This document shows, in pieces, positions 6,379-49,923 of a DNA stretch of 64,000 nucleotides. The notes below the pieces were generated by a model. The model was not told the DNA's origin and did not search any database. It worked only from the letters and a program-made list of their open reading frames with translations. This DNA is from Dehalococcoidia bacterium (GTDB taxonomy: Bacteria > Chloroflexota > Dehalococcoidia > Bin125): positions 62,001 to 126,000 of the forward strand of contig JAJDTU010000002.1 of assembly GCA_022826965.1 (NCBI GenBank), read 5' to 3'. How positions within the stretch are numbered: the stretch's first letter is position 1; each line of letters opens with the position of its first letter. A program made the position numbers and the translations under genes.

Positions 6379-6587
6379 CGCGGTCTCGATCCGACCGCCG
6401 CGTTTGTTGACATATGCAGGCGGCCTTGAGAAAGTGACTACAGTGCCAGTCGACTGAGAGGCGTTCGTTAGACGAGCGCAAAATCGGTCAGTGCCTCTTG
6501 ATGGCTGGAGGCAGCCCGCAAATGCCGCGATAAACTGTTGTCAAGTAACTCCCACCACGGCGGGTGCGGGGCAAGGAGGAGCAGGGA

Positions 6588-7349
6588 ATGCGTACCATCT
6601 CGTCTGACGGAGCAGCCACACGCTGGATAATCCGTCTTTCACTTGTGGCCGCTCTGGTGGCGTTGCTCGCCTCGCTGACTCCAGCGCTCGACGCTCAGGA
6701 ACGCCCCCCCGGACCGCAGGTGTTCTATGGCGAAGATGCCGTCGGCTACGCCGGATCGGAGATCAAGGTCTTCAATCAGAATGGCGTAGAGATCAGCTCC
6801 GGCGGAGAGGGCACGGGACTCGTCGGCAGCGACGGTACCTGGTTCGTGCAGATCAGCCTGCAAGAGGCAACGAGGGCCAAGCTGCGGATCGTGTCCGCGT
6901 CAGGTGACCGCGAGACCGGACTGCTGGATTTGATCGAATTCGACCTCAAGGAAATCTCCATTCGAGAATTCTCTGCTGTCTCCGAGGAACTCGATGTCAC
7001 CGGCGAAACGATTTCGGTCAAGATCATCGCCCGTCGAGCTCCGGACGGCCGCATCGAGTTCGGCATGCGCGGACCGGACGGCGAGGACATCCTGCCGCCC
7101 AGGCGACTGTTCCCGCTGGGTGGCCCAGGGCACACTCGATGGCTGCGCAGCTCGGTGATTGACTTCGGCAATGGCTTCGAGGGCCGGATTATCGCTCGCT
7201 ACGTGGAAGCCGACGGCCGCACCGAGTTCGGTTTCCGCGTTGTAGGCCATGATGACCAGTTCCCCACCCGACGCTTCTTCCCAGCGACCGGTCCAGACCA
7301 CAACCGCTGGCTGAGTAGTTCGGTGATCGAAATCGGCAGACCCAGATAA
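6588..7349 (+). CDS. Secreted protein with two IAR/EFG/RRFFP repeats
   Basis: A 253-residue exported protein. The start at 6588 is set by the strong AAGGAGGA site at 6573-6580. A signal peptide covers about residues 1-36 (hydrophobic core LSLVAALVALLASL). The middle part is beta-rich and unassigned. Two tandem repeats follow at 143-193 and 198-250. Each has an IIAR strand, a GR(I/T)EFG strand, a PRRLFP or TRRFFP turn and a WLRSSVI or WLSSSVI end. The same repeat appears twice in the selenoprotein at 44714 and once, more diverged, in the transposon protein at 11502-12758. I know no named family for it. Confidence 0.75.
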   Translation: MRTISSDGAATRWIIRLSLVAALVALLASLTPALDAQERPPGPQVFYGEDAVGYAGSEIKVFNQNGVEISSGGEGTGLVGSDGTWFVQISLQEATRAKLRIVSASGDRETGLLDLIEFDLKEISIREFSAVSEELDVTGETISVKIIARRAPDGRIEFGMRGPDGEDILPPRRLFPLGGPGHTRWLRSSVIDFGNGFEGRIIARYVEADGRTEFGFRVVGHDDQFPTRRFFPATGPDHNRWLSSSVIEIGRPR

Positions 7350-11501: not shown

Positions 11502-12758
11502 CTACCCGCACGTCCGCGTTGCGACCGGTTCAGCGCTGATGTCCACGAACGTGAAGATCAGGGTGTTGCTGCCCTTGGCGCTGTTGAGTGACATTGTGTG
11601 CGAGTGGGCGCGCCGCGCCGCCTGATAGAAGTCTCGGGCCTGACTCCCGCTCAGGGTTGCCGAACTGGCGGAGACGCTGAACGAGTACGACCGTCCGCCG
11701 AGCGTCGTCCTGACCGTGCCGGCGGTCAGGCTGTGGTAGTCGCCCTGTTCGTGCAGGCGGATTGACACTCTCCAGCCACTCGCCGAGGGGCTACAGGTGA
11801 CCTTCATCTCGGCTGTGAACACGGCGGTCGTACCGATTGCCGTGCCGTTGATCGTCCTGGTGCCGCTCATCGGCGGTTGGACCGCTTCCGGTTGCGGAGT
11901 AGTCGAGCGCTGGGATTGCCCAGTGGTTCCGGTCTGACCTTGCGGAGACGCCGGCTGTTGGACCCTCACGCCGCAAACATGTAGAGACGACGGCAGTCTG
12001 TCGAGTTGGTCCATCTCGAAACGCGCGGTGATCGAACCGCCGTTGTGTAGCGGCAAGGCAATGACGACGGCTTCCGATTGCAACGCGTCTTGCCAGAAGT
12101 TGCGCGCCTGGGTTCCGCTCAGCGTCGCCTTGGTGCCAGGTGAATCTGCGACGGGCGCCTGATTCACGCTGCCGTCGTGCCGGGCAACTCGGAATGTGTA
12201 CACCTTCTTGTTGACCGCTACCGACGTGGACGCGCCGGACCGCAGCACGCGGCGAACATTTCCAAACCCCGATTGCCGATAGGTCGAGACAATCTCGGCT
12301 TCCCAGTTGGAGGCGTTGGACGGGCAAGAGACTCGGAGGGTTGAGTGGCCGGAGCCGGTGACACTCTGGGATCCACCTGTTGTTGGTTGGGCAGGTTCCG
12401 ACCGCTCCGTTTGCCGGGATGTCGATGTGCCCTGTGGCCCGCCCTCCAGCGTCATCTCTGTGCCTTCGAGGAGGGATGACGCCGGGAACGTCACGGTGAA
12501 TGGTGACGACTGGTACCAGGCGTTCCGTTGCGGGTTCCGAGGAAGATAGCGGGCTTCGACCAGCTGCCGGTCGCCCCAGTCGTCGCCGTCGCGCTGCTGC
12601 AACGAGAACTCCACGCGGCCATCTGAGAGTTCTCGGGCGTTGATTCTGACTTCGGTCGTGATGTCGTCCGTCGATGCAGCGTGGGCGCCGAGTGCGGCCA
12701 CTGCGATGAGCAGCGCGGCAATGAGCAAGAGTCCGACGCGTTTGCGGAGTCTCGACAC
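11502..12758 (-). CDS. Secreted protein with duplicated C-terminal domain and one diverged IAR/EFG repeat (transposon passenger)
   Basis: A 418-residue exported protein read from a GTG at 12758 with a GGAAGGGGG ribosome site. The signal peptide covers about residues 1-28 (basic VSRLRKR, then a leucine/alanine core ending GAHA). Residues 36-90 form a diverged copy of the repeat found in the proteins at 6588 and 44714 (RINAR, GRVEFSL, YLPRN, WYQSS). Two homologous ~120-residue beta-rich units follow, ending LSGTQARNFWQDA and LSGSQARDFYQAA, joined by serine/threonine/glutamine-rich linkers. Four cysteines, two per unit (VSCPS/HVCGV and VTCSP/RTCG), could pair outside the cell. Function unknown. 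Confidence 0.7.
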   Translation of the reverse strand: MSRLRKRVGLLLIAALLIAVAALGAHAASTDDITTEVRINARELSDGRVEFSLQQRDGDDWGDRQLVEARYLPRNPQRNAWYQSSPFTVTFPASSLLEGTEMTLEGGPQGTSTSRQTERSEPAQPTTGGSQSVTGSGHSTLRVSCPSNASNWEAEIVSTYRQSGFGNVRRVLRSGASTSVAVNKKVYTFRVARHDGSVNQAPVADSPGTKATLSGTQARNFWQDALQSEAVVIALPLHNGGSITARFEMDQLDRLPSSLHVCGVRVQQPASPQGQTGTTGQSQRSTTPQPEAVQPPMSGTRTINGTAIGTTAVFTAEMKVTCSPSASGWRVSIRLHEQGDYHSLTAGTVRTTLGGRSYSFSVSASSATLSGSQARDFYQAARRAHSHTMSLNSAKGSNTLIFTFVDISAEPVATRTCG

Positions 12759-12792
12759 GGTGAGACCCCCTTCCTGGCACGAGATGCGCGCT

Positions 12793-12897
12793 GTTGCCAG
12801 ACAAACGGCTCCCGAGGGATCGCCACGAAGGGGGCGCGGCAGCGGCATCCCTCAGAATGCAGCGACCCGTTCGGGCAAACTCCGTTTGTCTGGCAAC
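12793..12897. repeat. Nested inverted repeat, possible structured leader or small RNA
   Basis: GTTGCCAGACAAACGG at 12793-12808 is the perfect inverse of CCGTTTGTCTGGCAAC at 12882-12897. Inside it GAGGGAT at 12814-12820 pairs with ATCCCTC at 12847-12853. Sequence just outside the 16-bp arms is also loosely similar in inverted orientation (ATCT...CAGG). On the minus strand the block lies 34 bases upstream of the GTG of the secreted protein, so it could be its structured 5' leader, a small RNA, or a MITE-like remnant. No target duplication flanks it. Confidence 0.6.
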
Positions 12898-43342: not shown

Positions 43343-44635
43343 GTGAAATTTGAGTTCTTCCACCTGATGCCTTATCGGGATCTGCCGCCCGACTTCGCCG
43401 AGACCAACAATTCGGTCTGGGTCGACGTTGATTCGAAGCTCTTCGACCCGGCCAAGGCGCACGAGATGTACAACGACGGCCTGGACGAGCTCGAGGCCGC
43501 CGCGGCTGCCGGTTATGACGGCATCTGCATCAACGAGCACCACCAGAACGCCTACGGCCTGATGCCGTCGCCCAATCTGATGGCCGCCAACCTCTGCCGG
43601 CGAACCAAGGACGTGGCGATCGTCGTGCTGGGCAACTCGATCGCGCTCTACAACCCGCCGACCCGCGTGGCCGAAGAGTTCGCGATGCTCGACTGCATCT
43701 CGGGCGGCCGCCTCGTCGCCGGCTTCCCCGTCGGCACGCCGATGGACGACTGCTTCTGCTACGGCGCCAACCCGTCGCACTTGCGCGACAAGTACTACGA
43801 AGCCGCCGACGTGATCACGCAGGCCTGGACCCGGCCTGAGATGTTCTCCTACAACGGCCGCTACAACCAGTTGCGCTACATCAACATCTGGCCGCGCCCA
43901 ATCCAGCAGCCTCACCCGCCCGTCTGGATCCCCGGTGGCGGATCCGTCGAGACCTGGGAATGGTGCGCCGAGAACAACTACGTCTACTGCTACCTCTCCT
44001 ACGGCGGCTACAAGGCCGGGCAGAAGAACGTCGACGGGTTCTGGCGCACGATGCAGCAGCGCGAGAAGCCGCTCAACCCGTACCACGCCGGATTCCTCCA
44101 GCTCGTCGCCGTCGGCGAGACCGAGCAGGAAGTCGCCGACAAGTTCGGGCCGCACGCGGAGTACTTCTACAACAAGATGCTCCACATCGACCCGCGCTAC
44201 GCCGACCCGCCCGGCTATCGCACCGTCCGCACGATCGAGCAGGGCTTCACCCGCAGCCAGGGCCTCAAGCCCGTCTTCGGAGACTCGAAGAAGTTCGAGG
44301 GCGAGAAAACCGCCGAGAAGATGATCGAGTCAAAGGCCAACTCGGAAATCACCTGGAACGACCTGATCCGCGAAGGCAACATCGTCGCCGGTACGCCCAG
44401 CCAGGTCACCGAGCAGCTCGAGGAAGTCATCCGCACGCTGCACGTCGGACACCTGATGATCCTCAACCAGTTCGGCTCGATTCCGAAGGAACTGGCGATC
44501 CCGAACATCGAGATGACCGCCCAGCAGGTGCTGCCCAACCTCAAGCACATCTGGGACGACGAGGGCTGGGAAGACCACTGGTGGCCTCAGGGCATGGAGA
44601 GCGGTCAAGCGGACCCCGCGCCGCTGGCCTTCTAG
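43343..44635 (+). CDS. LLM-class flavin-dependent monooxygenase
   Basis: A 430-residue luciferase-like protein read from a GTG at 43343 (a TTG two codons earlier is possible). VKFEFFHLMPYRDLPPDF, GICINEHHQNAYGLMPSPNLMAA, NPPTRVAEEFAMLDCISGGRLVAGFPVGT and PVWIPGGGSVETWEW are the usual flavin-binding strands. It is longer than most LLM enzymes because of a C-terminal extension of about 80 residues. Substrate unknown. It lies 115 bases downstream of the binding protein on the same strand. Confidence 0.83.
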   Translation: MKFEFFHLMPYRDLPPDFAETNNSVWVDVDSKLFDPAKAHEMYNDGLDELEAAAAAGYDGICINEHHQNAYGLMPSPNLMAANLCRRTKDVAIVVLGNSIALYNPPTRVAEEFAMLDCISGGRLVAGFPVGTPMDDCFCYGANPSHLRDKYYEAADVITQAWTRPEMFSYNGRYNQLRYINIWPRPIQQPHPPVWIPGGGSVETWEWCAENNYVYCYLSYGGYKAGQKNVDGFWRTMQQREKPLNPYHAGFLQLVAVGETEQEVADKFGPHAEYFYNKMLHIDPRYADPPGYRTVRTIEQGFTRSQGLKPVFGDSKKFEGEKTAEKMIESKANSEITWNDLIREGNIVAGTPSQVTEQLEEVIRTLHVGHLMILNQFGSIPKELAIPNIEMTAQQVLPNLKHIWDDEGWEDHWWPQGMESGQADPAPLAF

Positions 44636-44666
44636 CCGGGCTCAACCAGAGCAAGGTTCCCGTACC

Positions 44667-44694
44667 GAAGGGCGGCGCCGATGCGCCGCCCTTC
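44667..44694 (+). terminator. 12-bp GC-rich hairpin after the LLM gene
   Basis: GAAGGGCGGCGC at 44667-44678 pairs perfectly with GCGCCGCCCTTC at 44683-44694 around CGAT. It sits 32 bases after the stop codon. The following bases (GTCATATC) are only weakly T-rich. Confidence 0.6.
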
Positions 44695-44713
44695 GTCATA
44701 TCATCGAAAGACG

Positions 44714-45808
44714 ATGACTCGACAGCTCCTCGCCAGACTGCCCGCCCTGTCGGCGTTGCTGGCCCTGCCACTGGTGCTCGGCCTGGCAACGCTCAACGCG
44801 CACGAAAACGAGGGCGGAGAGACCGTCCGTGTCATCGCTCGCCTGCACGAGAACGGGCGAATCGAGTTTGGCCTGCGCACGTCGGAAGGCAACCAGTTCC
44901 CAAGTCGCCGATTCTTCCCCACGGTGGTGACCCACGCAAACTGGCTGCGCAGTTCGCCCATCGAACTCTCAGACGGCACGCAGGTCAGAATCATTGCCCG
45001 CCGCACTGAAGACACCAGAGTCGAGTTCGGCCTGCGAATCGACGAGCCGCGCAGGGACTTCCTGCCGACCCGACGCTTCTTCCCGCGCTCGCCCACAGTG
45101 GGTCGCTGGCTTTCCAGCACACCGGTCCTCCTGCCCGCGCCGGCGCCGGATGACGATCACCGCGACCAACTGCCGGAAACTCCGGCTCCTGAGCCGGATG
45201 AACCGGAGAGGCCGCAAGACGAGAGCGATGACACCGGCAGCGGAGAGCCGGATCAGGCTTCGGACGTCGAGAGAATCAGCGGCGGTCACCGCGATGGCCT
45301 AATCGTCGAAGGCAACACCATCGGCGACCCCGACGCACCCGTCCTGATCGTCGAATACGGCGATCCGTTTTGACCGAACTGCCGCCGGATCGCGACTCAG
45401 GTTGAGCCGCGACTGATCGACGAGTACGTCCGCACCGGCATCGCCCGGTTCAAATTCGTCAACATCGCCTACCTCGGCGCGGCGTCCGAACGGGTCGGCT
45501 ACGCGATGGTTTGCGCCATCGAGCAAAGCGGCGCTGCCTTCTGGCAAATCCACGATCGCTTCCTGATCGACGGCAGCCGCGCCGCGTCTCGCGCCCAGCT
45601 CATCAGGTACGCAGGCGAAATCGGCCTCGACGCTGACCGCTTCGAGCGGTGCTACGACGATCCTGCGACACGGCAGAAGCACAACCAGAACCTACGTGAT
45701 GCTCGGACGATCGGGATCACGTACGGTCCGCGAATCAGGGTCAACGGAGCCGGTGCGGGCACTTCGTTCGCGGCAATCGCGCAGGCCGTCGAAGCGGCGA
45801 CTCCATAG
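44714..45808 (+). CDS. Probable selenoprotein: secreted IAR/EFG-repeat protein fused to a DsbA-like thioredoxin domain (UxxC)
   Basis: The frame from ATG 44714 meets TGA at 45371-45373 and, read through, continues in the same frame to 45808, giving 364 residues with Sec-220. Order: signal peptide at about 1-30; two repeats at 38-83 and 91-138 (IAR, EFG, RRFFP, WLRSS or WLSS); an acidic proline-rich linker at 141-190; a DsbA/thioredoxin-4 domain from about 195. The TGA falls exactly at the first cysteine of the CxxC motif: VEYGDPF, Sec, PNCRRIA. The downstream part keeps the family pattern (LIDEYVRTGIARFKFVNIAYLG, FWQIHDRFL, GPRIRVNG with the cis-proline). A SECIS-like hairpin follows. The alternative is a nonsense mutation at this exact codon. 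Confidence 0.75.
45371..45411 (+). promoter_or_regulatory. Candidate bacterial SECIS element with in-frame UGA
   Basis: After the UGA at 45371-45373, CGCG at 45391-45394 and CTCA at 45396-45399 pair with TGAG at 45403-45406 and CGCG at 45408-45411. An A-C mismatch lies between the two stems and the apical loop is GGU. The loop begins 26 bases after the UGA and has G in its first two positions, within the known rules for bacterial SECIS hairpins (apical loop 16-37 bases from the UGA, guanine near the loop start). Confidence 0.65.
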
Positions 45809-45829
45809 CTCGGCGCTACGCTGACCTCC

Positions 45830-46240
45830 ATGAAACCAAAGATCAGCATCATCACGCTCGGCGTCTCCGATCTCGATGCGTCGGTCCGGTTCTACCGTGA
45901 CGGGCTGGGCTTGCCCGCGCCCAACTACAACGAGGGCGACAACATCTGCTTCCTCGAGTTGGATGGCACGTGGCTCTCGCTATACCGCCGTGACAAATTC
46001 CCCGAGGAGGCGGATGTCGAGTTCGCCAGTCCGACTGCCGGCACCCCAACCATCACCCTCGCGCACAATCTGGGCTCACGGGAAGCCGTCGATGCCGCGA
46101 TGTCCGAGGCTGTCGCGGCCGGCGCAACCCTGGTCAAGCAGCCCGAGGAGGTGTTCTGGGGTGGATACAGCGGATACTTCAGCGATCCAGACGGCTACCT
46201 CTGGGAACTCGCCCACAACCCGTTCACGGATCTGACCTGA
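45830..46240 (+). CDS. VOC-family (glyoxalase/bleomycin-resistance-like) protein
   Basis: A 136-residue two-module beta-alpha-beta-beta-beta protein. ITLGVSDLDASVRFYRDGLGL opens module one, and GYFSDPDGYLWELAHNP closes module two with its metal-binding glutamate. Members are glyoxalases, dioxygenases or drug-binding proteins; the reaction cannot be named. It follows the selenoprotein by 21 bases and precedes a second VOC gene by 2 bases. Confidence 0.85.
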   Translation: MKPKISIITLGVSDLDASVRFYRDGLGLPAPNYNEGDNICFLELDGTWLSLYRRDKFPEEADVEFASPTAGTPTITLAHNLGSREAVDAAMSEAVAAGATLVKQPEEVFWGGYSGYFSDPDGYLWELAHNPFTDLT

Positions 46241-46614: not shown

Positions 46615-47385
46615 CTATTCCCCAACCTCTAACGACCGACCCGCTGTCAGCCCGCCGTCGATGACGAACTCCGAACCGGTGCTGTAGGTCGCCTCGGCGG
46701 CGATGAACAGCATCATCTTGGCCACCTCATCGACCCGACCGAAGCGCGGGATCGGCATCCGAACCGGCACGTCGCCGTCCGGCCTGCGCGGTGTGTCCTC
46801 ATTCGTGGTCATCAGCGTATCGATCGGACCGGGATGAACCGAGTTGACGCGAATGTTGTACGGCCCCAGCTCCAGCGCCGCAACCTTCGTCAGGCCCCGA
46901 ACCGCGAACTTCGACGAAACATAGGCGCTGGAATCGGGATAGCCTTCCAGACCGGCCGTCGATGACGTGTTGATGATGCAGCCGCCGCCGGCCTCGCGCA
47001 TCGCCTTGATCGCTGCTCGGATGCCCAACCACACGCCCACCTGGTTGATCTTGATCATCTCCAGGTACTCCTGCGCGGTCGTGTCCTCGATCGAAGCGTT
47101 GCGTAGGATGCCGGCGTTGTTGATCAGGATGTTCAGCTTGCCGAACCGCTCGGTCGTCGCATCGACCATCTCGGCCCAGCTTGATTGATCGGAGACGTCC
47201 AGCTTGCGGAACATGGCATCGCCGCCGGTGTCGTTGATGCTCTCGGCAACCCGATTGCCGTCTTCCTCCAGCACATCGCCAATCGCGATTGCCGCGCCCT
47301 CGCGCGCAAAGAGGCGCGCCTGATGTTCACCCTGCCCTCGGGCGCCTCCAGAAATCAGTGCGACCTGTCCATCGAGCTTGCCCAT
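46615..47385 (-). CDS. SDR oxidoreductase, tandem paralogue 1 of 4
   Basis: A 256-residue SDR with SGGARGQG at 12-19 (Ser replaces the usual first Thr), NNAG, and Tyr/Lys in YVSSK near 155-159. GDVLEEDG after strand 2 favours NAD(H). It is one of four consecutive genes with near-identical N-termini (MGKLDGQVALISG) and segments NQVGVWLGI and RVNSVHPG. The part after 190 (TNEDTPRRPDGDVPVRMP) differs from the others, so substrate binding has diverged. Stop at 46615 converges on the VOC genes. Confidence 0.88.
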   Translation of the reverse strand: MGKLDGQVALISGGARGQGEHQARLFAREGAAIAIGDVLEEDGNRVAESINDTGGDAMFRKLDVSDQSSWAEMVDATTERFGKLNILINNAGILRNASIEDTTAQEYLEMIKINQVGVWLGIRAAIKAMREAGGGCIINTSSTAGLEGYPDSSAYVSSKFAVRGLTKVAALELGPYNIRVNSVHPGPIDTLMTTNEDTPRRPDGDVPVRMPIPRFGRVDEVAKMMLFIAAEATYSTGSEFVIDGGLTAGRSLEVGE

Positions 47386-47443
47386 GTTGGTTCTCTCAAT
47401 CCAGTTTCGTCGTTCCGCCACATCGCGGACGTGGCAACCTGAG

Positions 47444-48223
47444 CTAGTCCCGGGGCCGCGCGACCATTGTTCCGGCTGTGACACCGCCGTCGATCACGAA
47501 TTCGGCTCCGGTGCTGTACGTCGCGTCGGCGGCGATGAACAGCATCATCTTCGCGACCTCGTCGACGTGCCCCACTCGCGGGATCGGTGCGGTCCCTGCG
47601 ATGTCGAAGTCGTCGTCGTCAGTCCGCTGGATCTGCGGATCGCGAATCATCGGCGTGTCGATCGGTCCCGGATGCACTGAATTCACGCGAATGTTGTACG
47701 GAGCCAACTCCAGCGCCGCCACCTTGGTCATCCCGCGAACCGCGAACTTCGACGAGACGTAAGCTCCCAGGCCCGAGTAGCCTTCAAGGCCTGCCGTGGA
47801 CGACGTGTTGATGATGCAGCCGCCGCCGGCTTCCTTGAGCGCCGGGATCGCCGTCTTCATGCCCAACCAGACACCCAGTTGATTGACGAGGATGACGTCC
47901 AGGTAGTCCTGCAGGGTCGAGTCTTCAATCAGGTTCACCCGGGCGATGCCGGCGTTGTTGATCACGATGTCGAGACGGCCAAACTGCGACACGCTCTCGT
48001 CGACCATCGACTGCCAGCTCGACGCTTCGGTCACATCGAGCTTCTGAAACATGGCCTGACCGCCGGTGTCGTTGATGCTCTCGGCGACGCGCTGGCCGTC
48101 TTCCTCCAGCACATCGCCGAGCGCGACAGCCGCTCCCTCTCGGGCGAACAGACGAGCCTGAGCCTCTCCCTGTCCTCTCGCGCCGCCGGATATCAGCGCA
48201 ACCTGTCCATCGAGCTTTCCCAT
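47444..48223 (-). CDS. SDR oxidoreductase, tandem paralogue 2 of 4
   Basis: A 259-residue SDR: SGGARGQG 12-19, NNAG 89-92, Ser-141/142, Tyr-155 and Lys-159. Closest in the window to paralogue 1 over the first 60 residues (LEEDGQRVAESINDTGG against LEEDGNRVAESINDTGG). The variable loop reads RDPQIQRTDDDDFDIAGTAP. It begins 88 bases downstream of paralogue 3, and 58 bases separate it from paralogue 1. Confidence 0.88.
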   Translation of the reverse strand: MGKLDGQVALISGGARGQGEAQARLFAREGAAVALGDVLEEDGQRVAESINDTGGQAMFQKLDVTEASSWQSMVDESVSQFGRLDIVINNAGIARVNLIEDSTLQDYLDVILVNQLGVWLGMKTAIPALKEAGGGCIINTSSTAGLEGYSGLGAYVSSKFAVRGMTKVAALELAPYNIRVNSVHPGPIDTPMIRDPQIQRTDDDDFDIAGTAPIPRVGHVDEVAKMMLFIAADATYSTGAEFVIDGGVTAGTMVARPRD

Positions 48224-48311
48224 CTCGTACCTCCTCCTTCAGATTCCGTCTTTCCCTACAGCTTGCTCTCGCAGACCGAAGACTAGTCTCCGCTACTCGG
48301 AGCATCGACCG

Positions 48312-49082
48312 CTAGTCGTTGACCGGAATCGCCCGGCCCGACATATGACCGCCGTCGATCTGGAACTCCGCCCCGGTGCTGTAGGTCGCGTCGGCCGCAA
48401 TGAACAGCATCATCTTGGCCACCTCTTCCGGCAGACCAGCGCGCGCGATTGGGCTGGTCACCGAAATCTCCCCCTCGGGACTGCCGCCAATCCTGGGATC
48501 TCGCACCATCGGCGTATCGATCTGCCCGGGATGAACCGAATTGACGCGAATGTTGTACGGCGCCAGTTCCAGCGCCGCCACTTTGGTGATCCCCCGCACG
48601 GCGAACTTCGAGGAGACGTAGCCGCTGAGGCCGGCATACCCCTCGTATCCGGCGGTCGACGACACATTGACGATGCAGCCACCACCCGTCTCGCGCATCG
48701 GCTCGATAGCGGCACGGATCCCCAACCAGACGCCAACCTGGTTGATGTCGATGACCTCGAGATACTCCTCGAGCGTCGAGTCTTCAATCGTCCCGGCGCG
48801 CAGTATGCCGGCGTTGTTGATCAGGATGTTGAGACCGCCGAACTGCTCCACCGCCTGACCGACGATCTCCGACCAGCCGGACTGGTCGGTCACGTCCAGG
48901 TTGCGGAACATGGCCTGGCCGCCGGTGTCAATGATGCTTTCCGCGACCTGCCGTCCCTCCGCTTCCAACACGTCGCCCAATACGACCGCCGCGCCCTCGC
49001 GGGCGAAGAGTCGAGCCTGCGCCTCGCCCTGCCCGCGAGCAGCCCCCGAAATCAGCGCCACTTGTCCGTCAAGTTTGCCCAT
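48312..49082 (-). CDS. SDR oxidoreductase, tandem paralogue 3 of 4
   Basis: A 256-residue SDR with SGAARGQG as cofactor loop, NNAG, and YVSSK. The variable loop is RDPRIGGSPEGEISVTSPIARAG. The start codon is only 17 bases after the stop of paralogue 4, so these two are co-transcribed. The C-terminal DGGHMSGRAIPVND differs from the DGG(x)TAG of the others. Confidence 0.88.
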   Translation of the reverse strand: MGKLDGQVALISGAARGQGEAQARLFAREGAAVVLGDVLEAEGRQVAESIIDTGGQAMFRNLDVTDQSGWSEIVGQAVEQFGGLNILINNAGILRAGTIEDSTLEEYLEVIDINQVGVWLGIRAAIEPMRETGGGCIVNVSSTAGYEGYAGLSGYVSSKFAVRGITKVAALELAPYNIRVNSVHPGQIDTPMVRDPRIGGSPEGEISVTSPIARAGLPEEVAKMMLFIAADATYSTGAEFQIDGGHMSGRAIPVND

Positions 49083-49099
49083 CTCAAGCGCTCCTCGAT

Positions 49100-49882
49100 C
49101 TAGTCGCCGCGATCTTGCAGGCGCGTGACTGACCACCCGGCTGTCATGCCACCGTCAATCACAAACTCCGAGCCGGTGCTGTATGTAGCATCCGCAGCGA
49201 TGAAGAGCATCATTGTGGCGACTTCTTCAGGCCGGCCCACGCGCGGTATGGGAGCCTCGAAGCTGGTGTCGTCCGGCTCGCGCGTCGCGAGCTGCGGATC
49301 GCGGATCATCGGCGTGTCGATCGGGCCGGGATGGACGGAGTTCACTCGGATGTTGTACTGGCCCAGTTCTTGCGCGGCGACCTTGGTCAGGCCGCGCACA
49401 GCGAACTTGGAGGACACATACGCGCCCAGCCCCACGCTCCCCAGAAGTCCCGCGACCGAAGACGTGTTGATGATGCAGCCGCCGCCCGCTGCCTTGAGCG
49501 CCGGAATCGCCGCCTGGATGCCGAGCCAGACCCCGACCTGATTCACGCGGATGACCTCACGGTAGTCATCCAGCGTCGACTCTTCGATCAACTTGCTCCT
49601 GGCAATGCCGGCGTTGTTGATCAGGATGTCGAGCCGTCTGTACTGCTCCACGACGGCATCAACTGTGGCACGCCACTGGCTCCGCTCGGTCACGTCAAGA
49701 TGGTGATAGACCGCGTCGCCGCCCGTGTCGTTGATGCTGGCCGCGACGAGTTCCCCTTCGGCGTCCAATACATCGGCGAGCGCCACCTGGGCGCCTTCAC
49801 GAGCGAACAACCGTGCCTGCGCTTCGCCCTGACCTCTTGCCCCACCCGAGATCAGCGCGACCTGCCCGTCGAGCTTGCCCAT
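49100..49882 (-). CDS. SDR oxidoreductase, tandem paralogue 4 of 4
   Basis: A 260-residue SDR, first of the array in transcription order. SGGARGQG, NNAG and YVSSK are all present; the variable loop is RDPQLATREPDDTSFEAP. GGGAGGCAG precedes the start. A GTG/ATG-started cupin gene lies 41 bases upstream on the same strand, so the array may be read from the cupin promoter. Confidence 0.88.
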   Translation of the reverse strand: MGKLDGQVALISGGARGQGEAQARLFAREGAQVALADVLDAEGELVAASINDTGGDAVYHHLDVTERSQWRATVDAVVEQYRRLDILINNAGIARSKLIEESTLDDYREVIRVNQVGVWLGIQAAIPALKAAGGGCIINTSSVAGLLGSVGLGAYVSSKFAVRGLTKVAAQELGQYNIRVNSVHPGPIDTPMIRDPQLATREPDDTSFEAPIPRVGRPEEVATMMLFIAADATYSTGSEFVIDGGMTAGWSVTRLQDRGD

Positions 49883-49923
49883 CAACTGCCTCCCGCCCGT
49901 TGTACAGAGCGCTCACGCATAGG

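Follow-up and report, generated by a model that had tools for sequence, protein, structure and literature searches.

What does a gene encode when its reading frame is broken by a single TGA at the very codon where a redox-active cysteine would be expected? The question is raised by a gene at 44714-45808 (+ strand) in a 64,000-nucleotide stretch of DNA from a Dehalococcoidia bacterium (contig JAJDTU010000002.1, positions 62,001 to 126,000, assembly GCA_022826965.1), the whole of which is referred to here as the window. An original prediction, made from the letters of the window, took the product for a selenoprotein in which selenocysteine (Sec) stands in for a redox cysteine and a secreted repeat is fused to a DsbA-like domain. 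The selenoprotein reading is strongly supported by sequence, namely by the Sec machinery of the genome, aligned and conserved UGA codons, Sec/Cys exchange among relatives, covariation in the selenocysteine insertion sequence (SECIS) and purifying selection. The predicted fold, the lack of a lipobox and the mobility of the repeat module are also evident from sequence. We put the probability at about 75% that the gene encodes a secreted selenoprotein whose Sec220 reduces or isomerizes disulfides, positioned by its module and fed with electrons through a CcdA-type conduit.

Translated with TGA as Sec, and in agreement with its orthologues, the gene specifies 364 residues and ends in a TAG stop; its sole in-frame TGA is codon 220 (45371-45373) and the frame is otherwise open. 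All of its parts lie on the + strand. A hydrophobic N-terminus, probably a signal peptide (44714-44806, extent judged by eye; predicted local distance difference test, pLDDT, below 50), is followed by two copies of a repeat, residues 37-86 (44822-44971; beta fold, pLDDT 88) and 90-143 (44981-45142; beta fold). A linker rich in proline and acidic residues (146-185, 45149-45268), predicted to be disordered with pLDDT below 50 over 146-183, leads to the DsbA-like (Thioredoxin_4) domain, residues 198-362 (45305-45799), which was assigned by Pfam and by fold match. The Pfam Thioredoxin_4 profile (PF13462) spans the TGA, matching residues 201-347 with E 9e-19 and 68.7 bits against a cut-off of 23.2, and the DSBA profile PF01323 falls narrowly under its cut-off (24.6 vs. 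25.6). Sec220 is the first residue of the motif UPNC, in which Cys223 (45380-45382), invariant in the domain alignments, is the resolving cysteine. The two repeat copies, the replacement of the first cysteine of the CxxC motif and the continuation of family sequence to 45808 are thus as originally described. Cys267 (45512-45514) and Cys313 (45650-45652) also occupy invariant columns of the domain alignments and could possibly form a second, structural disulfide. In the structure predicted by AlphaFold2, pLDDT exceeds 90 over most of the DsbA domain. Promoter and terminator scans of 44400-46000 gave no match, nor did Rfam at its gathering threshold near the fusion gene.

Two findings had been named beforehand as speaking against a selenoprotein, a genome without selB, selC and selD, and a TGA unique to one assembly with a normal Cys codon in sister strains. 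Neither applies, and the genome has all of these genes as well as selA. The tRNA-Sec scores 70.2 bits, above the family cut-off, and has the anticodon tca; selA, selB (above cut-off) and selD were found alongside it. Across the 20 genomes of the order, selA is present in 20, selB in 20 (19 above cut-off) and selD in 18. As a separate observation, all 18 selD matches above cut-off contain one in-frame TGA (e.g. G000:C12:264989-265930, in the genome of the window, here G000, and L048), which suggests that selD itself may encode a Sec-containing SelD.

Searched with the domain alignment, 115 of 294 genomes of the class had matches. Within the family of the window there are 65 DsbA-domain matches, from 16 of 20 genomes, and every one of the 65 holds one TGA, always as UxxC. 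Each genus genome with matches has one fusion gene without a lipobox plus three or four clustered paralogues; in the genome of the window these are three clustered genes for Sec-containing DsbA-like lipoproteins at C6:110371-112750 (L049:5372-7840), beyond the reach of the original prediction. Scored with a pattern of our own rather than a signal-peptide program, a lipobox after a hydrophobic stretch occurs in 0/13 fusion orthologues vs. 50/52 paralogues. A full-length fusion orthologue with one aligned TGA is found in 13 of the 15 genus genomes, that of the window included, and the other 12 proteins are 45-77% identical to the window protein. Twelve named relatives are all metagenome-assembled genomes labelled Chloroflexota, Chloroflexi or Dehalococcoidia. 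The TGA is therefore not peculiar to one assembly, and its presence in 13 genomes rules out a sequencing error.

Cysteine versions of the site exist as well. Of the fourteen outgroup loci read, L090 proved to be misframed and enters neither the count nor the tree; among the 13 readable loci, 11 have Cys at the Sec position (mostly CPFC) and two have TGA (UPFC and UPYC). In a tree of 78 domains the 13 fusions form one clade (support 99/95) and the two Sec rows from outside the family fall among Cys rows, while two G016 paralogues, which are long, are poorly placed beside the outgroup. L091 and L096, which come from two further families within the class, carry TGA at the equivalent DsbA position with Cys relatives around them, and these sequences probably represent separate Sec/Cys exchanges.

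Downstream of the TGA lies a bacterial SECIS apical hairpin at 45392-45410 (+ strand), with arms at 45392-45398 and 45404-45410 and a loop AGGUU, of which a closing A-U pair leaves GGU. The spacing from the TGA to the GGU loop is 26 nt, and the 48 nt that start at the TGA fold with a minimum free energy (MFE) of -14.2 kcal/mol. The rules for bacterial SECIS elements given in the relevant passages of PMC13188914 are a loop of 3-9 nt, an upper stem of 4-16 bp, an MFE of -7.5 or lower, a spacing of 16-37 nt and a G among the first two loop positions. In spacing, loop and energy the window hairpin conforms to them, as had been proposed for its GG-starting loop. The 48 bases from the TGA align without gaps across all 65 family genes, where the seven-pair hairpin has 92.6% of its cells paired, three pairs changed on both sides, and 11 double-change cells as against a mean of 1.1 in shuffles. 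RNAalifold recovers the same hairpin minus the fourth pair and plus one pair at the loop; the fourth pair is open in 20 of 64 distinct rows, the window gene included, which has an A.C mismatch at pair 45395/45407. The hairpin overlies the strongest synonymous constraint of the fusion gene, a peak at codons 226-232 (0.95 vs. 0.52 overall) that ranks first of 301 seven-codon windows. A SECIS covariance model (R1), whose training set contained the four genes that it recovered, gives strong scores, of at least 54.6 bits, to four sites of the genome, the fusion gene and the three C6 paralogues, with the next match at 21.7; four weaker matches were inspected and had no convincing coding context.

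In which direction would such an enzyme work? Sec at the attacking position of a redox site usually favors reduction. With Sec as the attacker here, the protein is best read as a reductase or isomerase. Among the 20 order genomes DsbB (PF02600) was found in none (6/14 control genomes) and VKOR (PF07884) in none (3/14 control genomes), each searched with one Pfam profile that divergent forms could escape. A conduit of the DsbD_TM/CcdA type is present in all 20. In these genomes we thus see a possible reductive conduit but no usual oxidative relay. Seven of the CcdA genes from the 20 genomes were read in sequence. The one in the genome of the window (L152:2904-3758, G000:C4) is circularly permuted, with profile positions 33-214 first and the SPCVLPL helix (7-44) last, and the permuted order, TPCVGPI before SPCVLPL, holds in 7/7 loci from three genera (the others being L146-L151).

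An unlikely but not negligible alternative is that the protein is a selenoprotein but an oxidase, which puts disulfides into secreted proteins and takes its oxidizing power from oxygen, from a small molecule or from an unrecognized partner. The closest solved folds are indeed of DsbA type, such as BdbD and corynebacterial DsbA/MdbA, and the secreted proteins that share the repeat module include Cys-rich RCC1-type propellers. The DsbB, VKOR and CcdA counts and the chemistry of an attacking Sec, however, point the other way. Just before the cis-proline, where Thr is the usual residue, five of six aligned fusion rows have Gly, and this may shift substrate handling.

We therefore retain the reductase or isomerase, for which we infer the following course of Sec insertion in the cell, export, module binding, reductive direction, electron donor and substrate. 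SelB and tRNA-Sec, guided by the hairpin right after the UGA, would insert Sec, which would then be the nucleophile of the UxxC site in a thiol-disulfide oxidoreductase of DsbA fold. The fusion and the lipid-anchored Sec-DsbA paralogues have a common ancestor, the fusion being without the lipid anchor. The protein is most likely exported, with the N-terminal beta module sitting on a disordered linker and presumably holding it at the surface or at a partner. There Sec220 would reduce or isomerize disulfides with cytoplasmic electrons delivered via the CcdA-type conduit.

Several observations weigh against this account, in addition to the reach of the two profiles and the composition of the R1 training set mentioned above. 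By itself the window fold is unremarkable (z -1.04, 29 of 200 shuffles equally good); among the five sequences folded, that of L055 is no better than shuffles (150 of 200 equally good), and G015:C5:6745 deviates from the consensus hairpin. Whole-genome search did not recover the fusion gene from G006 or G011, and the absence from G006 rests on that search, the two stretches fetched from this genome being without the genes that neighbor the fusion. A CcdA may also work with other partners, and gene linkage was not seen.

If the TGA were a real stop, the gene would yield a short secreted protein of repeats, and the domain that follows would be a relic or a separate gene. The insignificance of the hairpin in a single sequence would fit this, and an open frame ending with repeats does exist in the window, at 6549-7346. 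Nevertheless, the frame and its TGA are kept by 13 orthologues, relatives have Cys at the same codon, the Sec machinery is complete and the hairpin covaries. Upstream of the TGA, the six pairs computed have a ratio of nonsynonymous to synonymous substitution rates (dN/dS) of 0.21-0.43, and downstream of it one of 0.17-0.26. Selection, the orthologues and the Sec/Cys pairs rule out a true stop for practical purposes, and we regard it as very improbable. Decoding of the TGA as some other amino acid through a general code change or leaky suppression is scarcely credible, since nothing specific favors it beyond the fact that readthrough alone would open the frame, relatives have Cys at the position, a tRNA-Sec with anticodon tca is present, and 35 of the 65 family genes end in TGA, which is thus not a general sense codon; this rules out general reassignment.

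The selenoprotein differs from its paralogues in the repeat module, a candidate new extracellular domain. The repeat region matches no Pfam or NCBIfam family. Modelled alone, the module adopts a beta fold (pLDDT 88, predicted template modelling score 0.79); Foldseek with this model gave no clear PDB relative (best E 0.49) and a VIA fold search gave as its best match an S-layer protein (Z 5.1, rmsd, root-mean-square deviation, 3.6 over 101 residues). The missing PDB relative of the modelled module does not establish a new fold. Most carriers hold two copies. In the window a second carrier, a separate gene at 6549-7346 (+ strand), has repeats of 57.4 and 48.4 bits, and a further one at 11505-12851 (- strand) has one clear copy, as does L119; the two window genes have no Pfam match and their products are probably secreted. 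Elsewhere in the lineage RCC1-type propellers carry the module, and so do a trypsin-like protease, a solute-binding protein, one protein that has cadherin-like domains, another whose M23 match is sub-threshold, and a protein judged by eye to be TlpA-like. In a sample of the phylum it was matched in 5 of 400 genomes, four of them within the genus. The module is lineage-restricted and mobile, recurring on protease, solute-binding and propeller proteins of the lineage.

The surroundings of the fusion gene are largely shared. Of the 12 named loci, 10 have a gene for an LLM-type oxidoreductase upstream and two end at a contig edge; two glyoxalase-like genes lie downstream in 12/12. Among the named loci the upstream LLM neighbor is 95-98% identical and the fusion 40-78%, and the fusion therefore evolves fast. 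Four tandem SDR dehydrogenase genes adjoin the fusion gene at 46615-49885 (- strand), and at least two are present in 11 of the 12 named relatives.

These results bear on a trait described for sponge symbionts. According to passages of PMC5649159, the majority of the sponge-symbiont genomes of that study have SelA together with SelB, while the majority of their close references lack them, and bin125 is listed there; a record with the name bin125 carries the fusion. From its relatives, the organism of the window would seem to live in a sponge. The Sec-DsbA family offers concrete products for the selenium trait of sponge symbionts. As a tentative proposal, to which we grant a modest chance of being right, this sponge-symbiont-like lineage may have replaced DsbA/DsbB with an extracytoplasmic, selenium-based reductive thiol pathway, in which the permuted CcdA supplies electrons to a whole radiation of Sec-DsbA proteins, mostly membrane-anchored, with one released and targeted by the module, as a new binding module specific to the lineage, to the surface of the cell or host, acting on disulfides or oxidants. 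An in-frame UGA is easily taken for a stop, so records of these organisms may well show fragments in place of four or five extracytoplasmic Sec enzymes per genome.

Among solved structures, the modelled DsbA domain is closest to BdbD of Bacillus subtilis (3eu3; Z 20.9, 167 residues, rmsd 2.5), followed by corynebacterial DsbA/TsdA (4pwo and 7unn; Z 18.0 and 18.3, 171 residues). These proteins, at an identity of 20-22%, differ from the fusion in having no repeat module and in having Cys at the position equivalent to Sec220. The best NCBIfam match of the fusion (114.9 bits, E 4e-33) is NF041057, the Rcas_1661 (seleno)lipoprotein family, which shares the DsbA/thioredoxin-type domain with UxxC, has a name that allows Sec or Cys, and is listed as DsbG-like with UxxC in the passages of PMC13188914. 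The fusion differs from that family in falling short of its curated cut-off, 190 bits (as do three other fusions, with 110.0, 112.7 and 116.3), in having no lipobox, and in its N-terminal two-repeat module, for which NCBIfam has no match. Ten of 11 rows tested match NF041057 at 110-151 bits, one paralogue being unmatched; at these scores the tested rows are homologous to it yet outside that equivalog.

Sec-containing DsbA-like (PF01323/COG2761) and DsbG-like proteins with UxxC appear in passages of PMC1088965, PMC2398784 and PMC13188914, and the fusion resembles them in having Sec first in the CxxC motif and a bacterial SECIS downstream; unlike theirs, its best Pfam model is Thioredoxin_4 (PF13462). 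The selenoprotein fusions described in passages of PMC2398784 belong to other families. A literature search of titles and the starts of abstracts, which covered few subscription papers, gave no DsbA-repeat fusion, no permuted CcdA and no selenoprotein study of these organisms. Of the novelty originally claimed, the Sec DsbA/DsbG-like domain thus belongs to a known kind; what is new is the architecture, a Sec domain joined to a lineage-restricted module, and the module itself.
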